A stretch of DNA of 64,000 bases from an uncultured Poribacteria bacterium. Lineage in GTDB: Bacteria; Poribacteria; WGA-4E; WGA-3G. The translations under genes were made by a program, and so were the position numbers. Under the pieces are notes generated by a model that was not told where the DNA came from, made no database searches, and saw nothing but the letters and a program-made list of their open reading frames with translations. Positions 27,253 through 32,517 of the stretch are shown one piece after another. Numbering within the stretch: the first letter of the stretch is position 1; each line of letters begins with the position of its first letter. The stretch lies in assembly GCA_951812525.1 (NCBI GenBank), contig OX638316.1:2390630-2454629 (forward strand), read 5' to 3'.

Positions 27253-28017
27253 ATGTTTATTGATTCACACGCACATATTCAACTCTCTCAATTTAACCGT
27301 GATCGCGATGGGGTGCTAAAACGCGCACAGGAATCCGCGGTCTCCACCATTCTCGTTATCGGATTTGACATAGAGACCAGTCTTGGTGCAGTGGAATTGG
27401 CGGACAAACATACACAAATCTACGCCACCGTTGGGATGCATCCGCACGACGCAAAGGATCTAACACCGGATGCCCTTAAAACCTTTCGTGAACTCGCTAC
27501 ACATCCAAAGGTGATTGCGCTCGGCGAAATGGGGTTGGATTACTACCGGAATCTCTCGCCGCGTCCGTTGCAAAAAGAGGCATTTGAAAGACAGTTGGAT
27601 CTCGCCGAAGAGATGCAGATGCCTATTATTATCCACAACCGTGATGCGTATATGGACATTCTACCTATCTTGGAGACACGTCAAGGAAGAATTCGAGGTG
27701 TGCTGCACTGCTTTACCGGTGATGTGGCGTTAATGCACAGAAGCCTTGCTGTCGGGTTCCATATAGGTATCGGTGGAATTGTGACCTACCCGAATGCCAA
27801 AGATGTTCAAGCGGTCGCGAAGGAAGTATCTGAAGACCGACTGCTCATAGAGACCGATTGTCCATGGTTGACGCCGCAATTCCGCCGCGGCAAACGGAAT
27901 GAACCCTCCTATGTGCGTGCTGTGGCAGAAAAGATCGCGGAACTTCGCGGCACCTCTATAGAAACAATTGGCGAAGCAACAACAAGAAATTTTGAGATTC
28001 TGTTCGCACAAGCATGA
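27253..28017 (+). CDS. TatD family hydrolase/deoxyribonuclease
   Basis: The 254-residue metal-dependent hydrolase shows the full TatD set. It has FIDSHAHIQL with the HxH metal site, GMHPHDAK, LGEMGLDYYR with the bridging Glu, PIIIHNRDA, the GVLHCFTGD His, and LLIETDCPWLTP with the metal Asp. Family members act as 3'-5' DNA exonucleases or D-aminoacyl-tRNA deacylase-like enzymes. A GGGCGGA site precedes the ATG. The following permease gene overlaps it by an ATGA junction. Confidence 0.9.
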   Translation: MFIDSHAHIQLSQFNRDRDGVLKRAQESAVSTILVIGFDIETSLGAVELADKHTQIYATVGMHPHDAKDLTPDALKTFRELATHPKVIALGEMGLDYYRNLSPRPLQKEAFERQLDLAEEMQMPIIIHNRDAYMDILPILETRQGRIRGVLHCFTGDVALMHRSLAVGFHIGIGGIVTYPNAKDVQAVAKEVSEDRLLIETDCPWLTPQFRRGKRNEPSYVRAVAEKIAELRGTSIETIGEATTRNFEILFAQA

Positions 28018-29129
28018 AGCACCTGAATCTTCGCATGTATGCAATGGTGCTTGCCCTCGTCTGTGTCTGGGTGATTTTTACACTCCTGACCGGCGGCACC
28101 TTCCTCAGCACTCGGAATCTGTCCAACCTTTCCCGTCAAGCGGCGGTCACAGCCATCCTCGCCGTCGGTATGACGCTAGTTATTGTCTCTGCTAACATCG
28201 ATCTTTCTGTCGGTTACGGTGCCGGATTACTCGGTGCTATTGCGGCGATCGTACACGTGCGGTGGGGGCAACCGATTATTGTGACGCTCCTTGCTGTTAT
28301 CTGCATCGGCATTCTGATGGGACTAATGCAGGGCTATCTCGTAGCGTATCAACGCATCCCCGCGTTCATCGTCACATTGGGTGGATTTTTGGCGTATCGC
28401 GGTTTAATGTTAGCCTTTACTAAAGGCGAAACCATCCTACTTCCAGACAATTGGCTCAAAGCGATTGGGAATGCCTACCTCTCGCCGACACTCGGCTGGG
28501 GACTCATGATTGCGGGACTCGGCATCAGCGGATACCGATTTTACCGACAACGCACCGCGCAACTGCAATATGGCACTGAGAAAACGTCTCCGGGTATCTT
28601 GCTATTGAAAATAGTCGGAATATCGGCACTGGTTGTAGTGTTCATCGTCGTGATGAATGCTCACAAGGGGGTTCCCTTTCCGGTAGGCATTCTATTTGGA
28701 CTGGCATTTGTATTTCATTTTATCGCCAATCACACCCGTTTTGGACGTTATGTCTATGCAGTCGGAGGGAACGCGGAGGCGGCATACCTCTCCGGGATCA
28801 ACGTACGCGGCATCACGTTACAGGTGTTCGCAACGATGGGAGCATTAATGGCGATTGCTGGTGTTGTGCTAACGGCACGCGTTGGGAGTGCAAGTCCAGA
28901 AGCCGGACGGTTGCTGGAGTTAGATGCCATCGCTGCGTGTGTTATCGGCGGTGCCAGTTTGATGGGTGGACGTGGGAGCATCTTCGGTGCGATTTTAGGG
29001 GCATTCGTCATGGAGAGTCTCAATAACGGGATGAGCATGGCGAATATGGATGCCTCGTGGCAGGATATTATCAAGGGTGTGGTACTTGTTGCAGCGGTAG
29101 GGTTTGACATGGTATCGCGACGGCGGTAA
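28014..29129 (+). CDS. Sugar ABC transporter permease, XylH/RbsC type
   Basis: The 371-residue membrane protein belongs to the BPD_transp_2 permeases of monosaccharide ABC importers. About ten hydrophobic helices are visible. Diagnostic segments are TLVIVSANIDLSVG, GLMQGYLVAYQRIPAFIVTLGG, YAVGGNAEAAYLSGINV and the closing GGASLMGGRGSIFGAILGAF. It overlaps tatD by 4 bp. The usual ATPase and sugar-binding protein genes are not adjacent, so it must pair with subunits encoded elsewhere. Confidence 0.88.
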   Translation: MKHLNLRMYAMVLALVCVWVIFTLLTGGTFLSTRNLSNLSRQAAVTAILAVGMTLVIVSANIDLSVGYGAGLLGAIAAIVHVRWGQPIIVTLLAVICIGILMGLMQGYLVAYQRIPAFIVTLGGFLAYRGLMLAFTKGETILLPDNWLKAIGNAYLSPTLGWGLMIAGLGISGYRFYRQRTAQLQYGTEKTSPGILLLKIVGISALVVVFIVVMNAHKGVPFPVGILFGLAFVFHFIANHTRFGRYVYAVGGNAEAAYLSGINVRGITLQVFATMGALMAIAGVVLTARVGSASPEAGRLLELDAIAACVIGGASLMGGRGSIFGAILGAFVMESLNNGMSMANMDASWQDIIKGVVLVAAVGFDMVSRRR

Positions 29130-29130
29130 G

Positions 29131-29393
29131 TGCTAATTATTTTTATTTTTTTAAACCTTTTCCCCAAAAATCTCCCTCTTTATAACTGAAATTTAAATAG
29201 GAATCTGTTTACGCGGTACGATGCGTCATCAGTGGTGCTAGTTTAATGGAAAACATTGAGTACTTGCGGTCGGATTCATGTGGCATCACGGTGGTGCTAG
29301 AATACGTACTTTTTTTAAACCCTTTTCTCGAATATTATCCTCTTTATAACCGAAATCTAATTGGGAATTTTCTATGCGATACGATTCATCAAC
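29131..29393. repeat. Imperfect direct duplication of the sigma/clamp gene leader
   Basis: Bases 29131-29233 and 29295-29393 are imperfect copies about 164 bp apart. Both contain TTTTTTTAAAC-C-TTTTC, CTCTTTATAAC-GAAAT and a GCG-TACGAT-C-TCATCA end. The second copy includes the start and first codons of the sigma/clamp ORF. In the first copy the corresponding start reads ACG. This looks like a decayed duplication of the gene leader. Confidence 0.6.
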
Positions 29394-31116
29394 GCACACT
29401 GATCTGACAGATGAGGAGCTCATTCTACTTGTACAAGCAGGAGATGAGTTAGCGTTTGCGCAACTGGCAACTCGCCATAGTTTCCGGATCTGGCAGTTGG
29501 TTGTTCTAAACTCCCGCCAGACTCGCGATGCTGAAGAGATCTTTCAGAACATTTGGATATCGGTTTGGGAGAACATCGGCAGCTTACGTAGCGTTGACAG
29601 TTTCGGGGGATGGCTGCAAAAGATAGCGTACACGGCTTGCAGCAGATACTACTCTGTCAAGCCGCACACCGCAGGTGAGATTCTGCAGAGCGCGGAGAAA
29701 CTCACTGAAACTATTGACCACGATGCCGTTGCCCGTTTTCGAGAGATGGAACTCCACTCCGCTGTAACCGAAGCAGTCCATCACCTTCCTGAAAAGGTAC
29801 GTGCTGTCGCTGTGCGATACTACTTAGAGATGTGGACTGTCAAAGAAATTGCGGAAGAACTTGACTTGGCGGTTGGCACCGTTAAGACGAGACTGAGAGA
29901 CATTCGTACACTTCTACGCAAGGAATTCGGTGTTGAAGAAGTTGAGAGGCGAAGAATTGTGGCACATGGAAAAGAAATATCCGAGCCATCACGAGACAAA
30001 ATTAAGGAGGGTTATGGAATGGAATTTACCTTTGAAAGAGATGAACTTTTGCTGTTTTTGCAAACACTGCAAGGTGTCACAGGTGGGCAAAATGCTATAC
30101 CTGTACTTTCAGATGTACTCATTCGCGCCGAAGGGGGCACGATTGATGTACAAGTCGACCTCAAAATGAGGGTTGAGGGGACGGTCAAAGCGGAAGGGGC
30201 AATTACTGTCCCTGTCAAGAAAATGGTGGATATTCTTAAAGAGTTACCAGCGGATAAACCGATAGATTTGGTAGCGACAGTCAAAGACAGCGTTGAGATT
30301 ACCTGCGACGATGGTGTTTACAAAATCCCCGGAACGTCTGATGAAGACTCCGTACAACTACCTTCTATTGAAGGTGAAGTGCTGTCGATTGGCGGAGGAA
30401 TATTGCGCGATGTGATCCAAAAAACAGGATATGCTGCATCTACGGAGAAGATTCGTCCTTTCCTAAACGGTCTCTACTTTAACTGCCTTGAAGACAGAAC
30501 AGAAATCGTCGCGACTGACGGCAAACGTCTCGTTCTTGCACAGTGTGGCCCACTCAGTTCACGAGCGGAAACCAACGGGTTTATCGTGCCACTTAAGGCG
30601 GTTCAAGAGATTCCGAAAACCTTCTCAGAATCTGTTGAAGTCGATATCTCTGTTTTAGAAAATGAAATCCGTTTTACCGATGGAAATGCTACCTTAACGA
30701 CCCAACTTGTGGATAGAGAATATCCAAACTATCAGAAAATCATCCCGAAGACGAGTATAGGCAAAACGGTCGTTTTGAAAGACCAGATTTTGAGCGTAAC
30801 GCGACGTATAGCACTGCGATCAAATCCCAAGAACCATGCAATCTGTTTAGAGATTGATACAGAACGTATTCGGGTTTCCACAATGACATCAGAATTAGTG
30901 GAAGTGCATGAGACAGTGCCTGTGGCGTTTGGCACCGGAAGCGTGAGAGTCGGTTTTGATGCTCGCTTGTTGATAGAGTCGTTGGCTCACATTGATACCG
31001 AGTCGGTGTCGATTGAATTTACAAAGGAATTAGAACCTGTCCTTATTAAACCGGTAGGCGACGATAGATATATTTCCCTTGTCATGCCGTTGCTTTTGGA
31101 TGCGTCTTGGGTATAG
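29374..31116 (+). CDS. ECF sigma factor joined in-frame to DNA polymerase III beta clamp
   Basis: One uninterrupted 580-codon frame encodes two normally separate proteins. Residues 1-200 are an ECF sigma factor. Region 2 contains DAEEIFQNIWISVWENI and FGGWLQKIAYTACSRYY; region 4 contains LPEKVRAVAVRYYLEMWTVKEIAEELDLAVGTVKTRL. Residues 216-580 are a full-length DnaN-like clamp, with NAIPVLSDVLI, AITVPVKKMVDILKELP, KIRPFLNGLYF, TDGKRLVLA, LVDREYPNYQKIIP and YISLVMPL. Between them are about 20 charged linker residues and no stop. An internal AAGGAGG (30004-30010) lies eight bases before the ATG of codon 216, so the clamp could also be made separately. Upstream is a duplicated leader. Confidence 0.85.
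   Translation: MRYDSSTHTDLTDEELILLVQAGDELAFAQLATRHSFRIWQLVVLNSRQTRDAEEIFQNIWISVWENIGSLRSVDSFGGWLQKIAYTACSRYYSVKPHTAGEILQSAEKLTETIDHDAVARFREMELHSAVTEAVHHLPEKVRAVAVRYYLEMWTVKEIAEELDLAVGTVKTRLRDIRTLLRKEFGVEEVERRRIVAHGKEISEPSRDKIKEGYGMEFTFERDELLLFLQTLQGVTGGQNAIPVLSDVLIRAEGGTIDVQVDLKMRVEGTVKAEGAITVPVKKMVDILKELPADKPIDLVATVKDSVEITCDDGVYKIPGTSDEDSVQLPSIEGEVLSIGGGILRDVIQKTGYAASTEKIRPFLNGLYFNCLEDRTEIVATDGKRLVLAQCGPLSSRAETNGFIVPLKAVQEIPKTFSESVEVDISVLENEIRFTDGNATLTTQLVDREYPNYQKIIPKTSIGKTVVLKDQILSVTRRIALRSNPKNHAICLEIDTERIRVSTMTSELVEVHETVPVAFGTGSVRVGFDARLLIESLAHIDTESVSIEFTKELEPVLIKPVGDDRYISLVMPLLLDASWV
30004..30021 (+). promoter_or_regulatory. Internal ribosome binding site and start for a separate beta clamp
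   Basis: AAGGAGG at 30004-30010 is followed after eight bases by the in-frame ATG at 30019. Initiation here would give a 365-residue clamp, the normal DnaN length. Both a fusion and a free clamp may therefore be produced from one frame. Confidence 0.65.
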
Positions 31117-31179: not shown

Positions 31180-32517
31180 CTATTTTGCCAGATTCCGTGC
31201 CTCTTTGAACTTCTCTTTGGCGAATTGCCCCCATTCCTTGATTTTTTCGTTGCGAATGCTCGGATCTTTCCAGTCGGCAGACGCCATCTGCATCGCTTCT
31301 TCTTCGGTAATAGGCATCTTCGTGAGAACCGCAATCGCCGCATCGCGTTTTGCTGGATCTTTACACTTTCGGATCGCTTTCCAGGCGTTGACGAGGTCTT
31401 TATGGGAATCAATGATGAGAACACCGAAGAGATCGTTGACTATATTCCACCGATTACCGCCTTTATCTGAGTCGTATTGAAACGGTGTGCCTTCCATGGC
31501 AAACGGATTTGGAACGATGCATCGTTCCCCGAGTTTATCATAGAGTGTTGGCAGGACACTCGCACGGTTCAAGCCACCCTTCCACTTAGGTCCCTCCGGA
31601 TCGTCATTTCGGAGCATCCAGAGTTTCTGTGCATCATCCGACAGAACAAATTCAAGAAACTTTTGCGCGACTGGAAGATTCGGTGCTCCTTTGAGAATAG
31701 CAATTGGATCTGCGGTAACAACTGCACCATCGGCTGGTACGGTGTATTTAATTTTATCCTCACCAATAACAGCAATTTGTCCGTATGCATAAAAATCGAT
31801 CGCCAGTCCATAAATGACTTGTCCAGCGACGACGTCTGTCGGAATAGCATTAGCACCGGCGGAGAAGCCTCGGACATTGCCACCGATTTTGGTCAGGAGC
31901 GCAAATCCTTCTTCCCAACCGACGGTTTGAAGGATAATCTCGTACACCATGTGTGCAGAACCACTTTCTCTCGGATCGGCTGCGCCAATTTTACCAAGTA
32001 AGGCAAAGTCCCCTAAATCCTGCCATGCTGTGGCTTTGGGGAGTTGGAGCATTTCACGGAGTTCATCGTTGTACATGATGCCGAAGCTGGACAGTGCTGC
32101 GCCGTACCATTGGTGTTCAGCGTCATAGAGTGGGATTCCGTGGAAGGATTGCATCATCTGCTTGAGTTGTGCATCAGGCAGCTTGTACGCGTGCAGCCAG
32201 CCCATATTTGAGAGACGGAGGTAGTTGTCAGTGCCCCCGCCAAAAAAGATGTCAATACTGATGCCATCTGGTACCCTTTTAAACTCCGATTCGATAAACC
32301 GGTAATTAGAGGAAGTGCCACCCACATCTCGCCAGTCGGTCTTGACTGTCCTACCGGTCTGTTCTTGGTACCATTTCTCAAAATTTGTGCCGAATTCTGT
32401 TTCAATACCTTCTGGATGTGGAGAGATAATAATAAGTTCGTCTTGGGAAAATGAGAGAGGGGAAAGTGCGAGAAGGCATAGAACTGTACCCCAAAATAGG
32501 GGCTTAAAGTAGGACAT
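31180..32517 (-). CDS. Extracellular solute-binding protein (family 1/iron-spermidine type)
   Basis: The 445-residue protein has a signal peptide (MSYFKPLFWGTVLCLLALSPLSFSQ) and a periplasmic binding-protein fold. Supporting segments are LIIISPHPEGIETEFGTNFEKWYQEQTG near the start, DIFFGGGTDNYLRL, GIMYND, and AKGAPN-type region ILKGAPNLPVAQKFLEFVLSDDAQKLW. This arrangement is typical of binding proteins for ferric iron or polyamines. No lipobox is seen. No permease or ATPase lies beside it, so the transported ligand is unknown. It converges with the sigma/clamp gene. Confidence 0.85.
   Translation of the reverse strand: MSYFKPLFWGTVLCLLALSPLSFSQDELIIISPHPEGIETEFGTNFEKWYQEQTGRTVKTDWRDVGGTSSNYRFIESEFKRVPDGISIDIFFGGGTDNYLRLSNMGWLHAYKLPDAQLKQMMQSFHGIPLYDAEHQWYGAALSSFGIMYNDELREMLQLPKATAWQDLGDFALLGKIGAADPRESGSAHMVYEIILQTVGWEEGFALLTKIGGNVRGFSAGANAIPTDVVAGQVIYGLAIDFYAYGQIAVIGEDKIKYTVPADGAVVTADPIAILKGAPNLPVAQKFLEFVLSDDAQKLWMLRNDDPEGPKWKGGLNRASVLPTLYDKLGERCIVPNPFAMEGTPFQYDSDKGGNRWNIVNDLFGVLIIDSHKDLVNAWKAIRKCKDPAKRDAAIAVLTKMPITEEEAMQMASADWKDPSIRNEKIKEWGQFAKEKFKEARNLAK

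Follow-up and report, generated by a model that had tools for sequence, protein, structure and literature searches.

Several ECF sigma factors carry a fused C-terminal regulatory domain, namely, members of ECF41, ECF42 and ECF56/SigG1, and SigJ with SnoaL_2, in which regions 2 and 4 are followed by a domain that modulates sigma activity, a role otherwise taken by an anti-sigma factor (PMC8103513, PMC7730460). In T4 late transcription, a sigma factor works together with a sliding clamp: gp55 (sigma) and gp33 (coactivator) are tethered to the clamp gp45 via clamp-binding motifs (PMC2988020, PMC7892883). Second copies of dnaN outside a replication role are known from a small-molecule context, where the makers of griselimycin and mycoplanecin keep the self-resistance copies griR and mypR (PMC10817943). 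Nargenicin targets another replication protein, DnaE (PMC8922275). The protein analyzed here (hereafter P0001), from sponge-type Poribacteria, resembles the first group in having regions 2 and 4 and a C-terminal domain that would modulate the sigma part, but the extensions noted in those two papers are SnoaL-type and similar, whereas in Poribacteria this place is taken by a paralogue of the clamp, FtsZ or DnaE that has an internal start of its own. P0001 shares with T4 the pairing of a sigma-like factor with a sliding clamp; however, the T4 proteins are separate and the trimeric clamp is loaded on DNA, whereas P0001 is a covalent fusion with an apparently non-closing clamp. By contrast with griR and mypR, which are free resistant clamps in biosynthetic clusters, the clamp of P0001 is sigma-fused, altered and exporter-linked. 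We found no description of sigma-clamp, sigma-FtsZ or sigma-FtsZ-DnaE fusions in the open-licence literature, in agreement with the initial annotation of P0001, which knew of no sigma-clamp protein; an earlier mention elsewhere is possible. Thus, C-terminal extensions of ECF sigma factors are already known, but the clamp, FtsZ or FtsZ plus DNA polymerase III alpha as the partner is apparently new.

The window, that is, the whole stretch of 64,000 nucleotides that was analyzed, covers positions 2390630 to 2454629 of a 5.06 Mb single-contig genome. A single frame of 580 codons encodes ECF sigma regions 2 and 4 and then all three DnaN domains (Table 1). The initial annotation had described both halves as complete. 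For the sigma factor, this was borne out by Pfam and NCBIfam cut-offs: Sigma70_r2 matched residues 47 to 93 with 24.8 bits (cut-off, 24), Sigma70_r4_2 matched residues 130 to 178 above its cut-off, and sigma70-ECF (TIGR02937) scored 61.7 bits (cut-off, 42.9). The absence of region 3 also fits the ECF make-up. For the clamp, completeness held at the level of domains, since DNA_pol3_beta domains 1 to 3 each exceeded their cut-offs across residues 216 to 573 and dnaN (TIGR00663) scored 212 bits (cut-off, 137.65), but not at the level of ring-closure and DNA-contact residues. The C-terminal domain lies in the same chain as the sigma part and is conserved among relatives. The genome also contains two free dnaN genes (L041 and L042, at 668 kb and 4462 kb), one dnaA (1472 kb), one ordinary ftsZ and one dnaE. 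Neither free dnaN adjoins dnaA, and no dnaN was found in the stretch read around dnaA. In the family, free dnaN is often present in two or three tandem copies (L129, L130, L036 and sister-genus genomes). An AlphaFold2 model of P0001 (6 sequences; pLDDT 50) was usable only for the last clamp domain and was set aside as a basis for sigma-clamp contacts. A PADLOC defence-model search found no system and gave weak partial matches only.

Table 1 Features of the sigma-clamp locus, in window coordinates
Feature	Position	Strand	Remarks
Ribose-type permease gene	27996–29129		Precedes the P0001 locus
Promoter-like element, copy 1	29147–29182	+	TTTTTTAAACC-N18-CTCTTTA; exact match
Promoter-like element, copy 2	29311–29346	+	27 bases before the P0001 ATG; position conserved before sigma-A-family genes
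Sigma-clamp fusion ORF (P0001)	29374–31116	+	ATG start, 580 aa, TAG stop, 0 internal stops
ECF sigma part	29374–29943	+	Residues 1–190; region 2 at ~47–93, region 4 at ~130–178
Linker	29944–30018	+	Residues 191–215
Internal ribosome-site-like stretch	30003–30010	+	TAAGGAGG; identical in 6/6 type A fusions
In-frame ATG	30019–30021	+	Start of the clamp part; possible free-clamp start
DnaN-type clamp part	30019–31113	+	Residues 216–580
Solute-binding-protein gene	31180–32517	opposite strand	After the P0001 locus

The fused frame was found in related genomes, and the relatives therefore do not all carry two separate genes. Seven other genomes have a fusion of the P0001 kind (type A): six encode full-length orthologues with 65 to 81% identity (G081/L034, G084, G022, G012, G074 and G075), and the seventh (G083/L037) encodes a protein of 473 aa from which most of clamp domain I has been deleted in frame. 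A second sigma-clamp family (type B), with ORFs of 575 to 606 aa, was found in a further 26 genus genomes and in one sister-genus genome, and its sigma part is 27 to 31% alike to that of P0001. Among the matches listed, type A was present in at least 8 and type B in at least 26 of the 38 genus genomes, and the two were never found together; the remaining four genomes had neither type among these matches. Beyond the family of the window (f1), no fused sigma-clamp appeared among the matches listed from 85 phylum genomes, and phage records gave clamp-region matches only, with no sigma-clamp fusion. A maximum-likelihood tree of 78 clamps placed type A in one clade (100/100) inside the free clamp 1 family and type B in a separate clade (100/100), with moderate support for the deepest branches. 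Because the two types of clamp fall into separate clades and their sigma parts are so little alike, the simplest reading is that a sigma factor was joined to a clamp twice, separately. The named relatives are metagenome-assembled genomes, a point in favor of an assembly or sequencing artefact, but over 30 genomes, each assembled separately and several consisting of one to three contigs, share this architecture, and the flanks are syntenic. The orthologues and the second family indicate that P0001 is neither a chance product nor an assembly join; the probability of an artefact is negligible, and the relatives rule this reading out.

Other partners are joined to the same sigma module. A sigma part with 70 to 75% identity carries FtsZ in place of the clamp in L073 and L080, and in most relatives the sigma part, FtsZ and a DNA polymerase III alpha core form one chain of 1350 to 1439 aa. 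These sigma-FtsZ-DnaE ORFs (L075:3023-7324, L077, L079 and L081–L092, from most same-genus genomes) contain a full FtsZ and the PHP, palm/NTPase and fingers regions of DnaE, with the catalytic Asp present in most, and the chain stops ahead of the clamp-binding and OB regions of DnaE. In G022, the sigma module is fused to SAICAR synthetase (PurC; L076:5356-6867), in tandem with a sigma-FtsZ copy. The partner-swapped genes occupy the syntenic place of P0001, whose neighbors in the window are not exporters. The P0001 linker (IVAHGKEISEPSRDKIK) resembles the linker and FtsZ N-terminal tail of sigma-FtsZ proteins (TMARGKEVSKPIRDKLK), which suggests that the clamp took the place of FtsZ in an older fusion; a GTG in the linker (29959–29961) stands at the position of the internal ATG of sigma-FtsZ fusions. 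A nearer paralogue group (sigma-prime-FtsZ, ~60% identity, 399–417 aa) has half an FtsZ, which ends just before the T7 catalytic loop and in most members shows the GTP-binding signature. It occurs in the window genome (L112:11968-13167; genome position 171968) and in about 19 relatives. Yet another sigma paralogue group has WD40 repeats as its partner. The sigma-prime-FtsZ gene is immediately preceded by up to five tandem secreted-protein paralogues that share the motif KPTIMILGSxHLANPG (L112:6905-11863, L121 and L243). Many other ECF sigma factors of the window genome (L133–L148) have a long C-terminal part (frames of 440 to 1040 aa), in which repeat-like regions come after one likely membrane helix.

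The fused clamps (6 type A and 26 type B) were compared with 44 free clamps of the same bacteria at the DNA, dimer and cleft sites of the E. coli clamp, mapped via a Pseudomonas clamp sequence; R24 and Y153 are DNA contacts in E. coli. In type A, R24 is replaced by Q and Y153 is lost in all six sequences; in type B, 16 of 26 sequences lack R24 and 22 of 26 lack Y153. The equivalents of the dimer contacts R96, I272 and L273 are altered in many fused clamps, and the window protein has R24Q, Y153P and changes equivalent to R96S and L273R. The cleft equivalents of L155, T172, L177, P242 and V360–P363 are retained in 6/6 type A sequences and are less well kept in type B (T172 in 14/26, P364 in 16/26). 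A column-sampling test scored departures from the free-clamp range against random columns in 400 draws. Type A cleft columns departed in 5.6% of cells versus 21.5% at random (as low in 4/400 draws), and type B cleft columns were average. DNA and dimer columns departed in 48% versus 19% in type B (0/400 draws) and were weakly raised in type A (31% versus 21%; 42/400). Thus, although P0001 has three clamp domains, its ring-closure and DNA-contact residues are changed, and the fused clamp appears unable to close on DNA. The dN/dS values were 0.09 to 0.20 for the sigma part (four orthologues), 0.23 to 0.31 for the fused clamp and 0.04 to 0.07 for free clamps; the linker, at 0.57 to 1.45, evolves nearly neutrally. 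These values indicate that both halves are under purifying selection, with a looser and different constraint on the clamp half.

The initial annotation had proposed that the fusion links transcription initiation to the replication machinery. P0001 could in that case be a covalent analogue of the T4 late system, whose gp55 and gp33 are tethered to gp45, with a DNA-loaded clamp part carrying the sigma factor to promoters and coupling transcription to replication. The presence of all three clamp domains agrees with this proposal. However, R24, Y153 and dimer residues are lost in both independent fusions, L037 lacks most of clamp domain I while staying in frame, most relatives have FtsZ or FtsZ-DnaE as the partner at the syntenic locus, and exporters rather than replication genes are the predicted targets. 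On the residue and target evidence, we set aside replication coupling of the T4 kind as very unlikely, and the proposed link is unsupported.

In all the fusions, the sigma part is followed by a start codon in frame, which in nearly every case is accompanied by a purine-rich stretch resembling a ribosome site. The AAGGAGG at 30004–30010, eight bases before the ATG at 30019, is as first noted, and TAAGGAGG-N8-ATG is found at the clamp start in 6/6 compared type A sequences. Type B has an in-frame ATG with GGAG(GT) or GAGG 6 to 8 bases ahead in 26/26 sequences, and the ATG after the sigma part of sigma-FtsZ genes is mostly preceded by AAGAGGGGA or GAAAGAGGGAG. In type A, AAG accounts for 40% of Lys codons and GAG for 32% of Glu codons; given this codon use, the common AAG GAG at the internal site is suggestive, even if the sequences are related. 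Since the start and the stretch are kept in the fusions, two products per gene are likely, and the earlier suggestion that free clamp is also made is plausible. Alternatively, the fusion could be incidental: a stop was lost between adjacent genes, a free clamp paralogue is made from the internal start, and nothing in particular depends on the fused form. In keeping with this are the internal starts conserved in the type A, type B, sigma-FtsZ and sigma-prime-FtsZ fusions, the nearly neutral linker and a fused-clamp dN/dS about five times that of free clamps. Nevertheless, the linker frame is intact in 32 compared sigma-clamp ORFs (of two origins) and in about 40 sigma-FtsZ-type ORFs, and purifying selection acts on both parts; we therefore regard an incidental fusion as improbable.

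Two copies of a bipartite promoter-like element lie ahead of P0001 (Table 1). These two and a third ahead of the sigma-prime-FtsZ gene are the three perfect matches in the 5.06 Mb genome, and the element is conserved ahead of the sigma-A, sigma-prime and sigma-second genes (clamp, FtsZ, FtsZ-DnaE and WD40 types). With at most one mismatch, 37 of the 38 genus genomes have 1 to 6 matches, against a single match in all for a reversed-pattern control. A three-mismatch scan of the window genome was dropped as evidence because it was hardly better than the control (14 versus 10 matches). Among 40 element sites chosen away from the sigma genes known at that point, 23 precede a MacB-type permease gene, 5 precede an ABC-2 permease gene, 4 precede secreted WD40 proteins (two more WD40 calls were sigma-WD40 genes), and 3 precede further sigma-A genes. 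There are only 17 to 19 MacB domains per genome. These positions suggest the element as a putative promoter for the P0001 sigma part.

Most sigma-clamp genes sit within exporter clusters. At least one co-directional MacB and/or ABC-2 permease gene was found in 24 of 26 type B loci, with the co-directional cluster MacB, sigma-clamp, ABC-2, ABC-2, sigma-prime-FtsZ. Type A genes adjoin MacB genes in G012, G022, G074, G075 and G084, and the order in G012 is MacB, sigma-clamp, MacB, MacB, MacB, HlyD. The window genome has the same MacB-MacB-MacB-HlyD operon at 1.90 Mb without a sigma-clamp gene; its gap measures 247 bases, compared with 2271 bases holding the sigma-clamp gene in G012, and contains an element copy with two mismatches, which counts as support by its position.

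These results are consistent with P0001 being a one-protein regulator of exporters, with the replication-protein paralogue as its sensor or inhibitory domain, a reading that we consider somewhat probable. A sensor is favored over replication machinery because the ring features of the clamp are lost and the predicted targets are export pumps. In the proposed mechanism, the activity of the ECF sigma part would depend on a C-terminal domain that arose from a duplicated sliding clamp. This domain, no longer a DNA-encircling ring, would stand where an anti-sigma factor usually stands and probably act via its retained peptide-binding cleft. The released sigma part would transcribe the P0001 gene itself along with MacB-type ABC exporter operons (at 1.90 Mb in the window genome). 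The internal start probably also gives a separate clamp domain, with a possible part in tuning the switch. Against the exporter-regulator reading, we counted the PurC and WD40 partners, which misfit a drug-target theme, the non-exporter neighbors in the window, the two mismatches at the exporter site and the weaker cleft of type B.

Candidate signals are a natural product of the griselimycin kind that binds the clamp cleft and a protein with a clamp-binding motif. A rival reading is a sensor of replication or division stress, in which the clamp or FtsZ part senses free cellular partners (clamp-motif proteins, FtsZ state or GTP) and not a drug, and the exporters belong to an envelope or stress response. 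The retained type A cleft, the clustering of sigma-clamp and sigma-FtsZ genes with exporters and the GTP-binding signature of most sigma-prime-FtsZ proteins, even though these end just before the T7 loop, are in keeping with such a sensor. The MacB and ABC-2 outputs, however, are a better fit to small-molecule or peptide export than to the control of division, and we consider a stress sensor unlikely. Returning to the exporter regulator, a clamp-cleft antibiotic as its signal is attractive, if speculative, since there are cyclic peptides that bind the clamp, their producers hold spare DnaN copies, and nargenicin targets DnaE. In BlaR1 and MecR1, membrane protease receptors for β-lactams, the sensor domain that controls the resistance response derives from a drug target or from a relative of one; these receptors have no known sequence relation to P0001 and resemble it in logic alone. 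We tentatively suggest, as a possibility that we rate below the regulator itself, a class of intracellular drug or toxin sensors in which crippled paralogues of essential targets (the clamp, FtsZ and DNA polymerase III alpha) are attached to one ECF sigma factor and swapped at one locus between species; a target inhibitor that binds the decoy would free the sigma part to switch on MacB and ABC-2 exporters. Should the clamp and FtsZ parts prove to be sensors, core proteins of replication and division have come to regulate export pumps, and the natural products met by the host bacteria could be read from the sensor domains. The family would then offer a clean test case of a regulator that changes its input domain while its target promoters stay unchanged.
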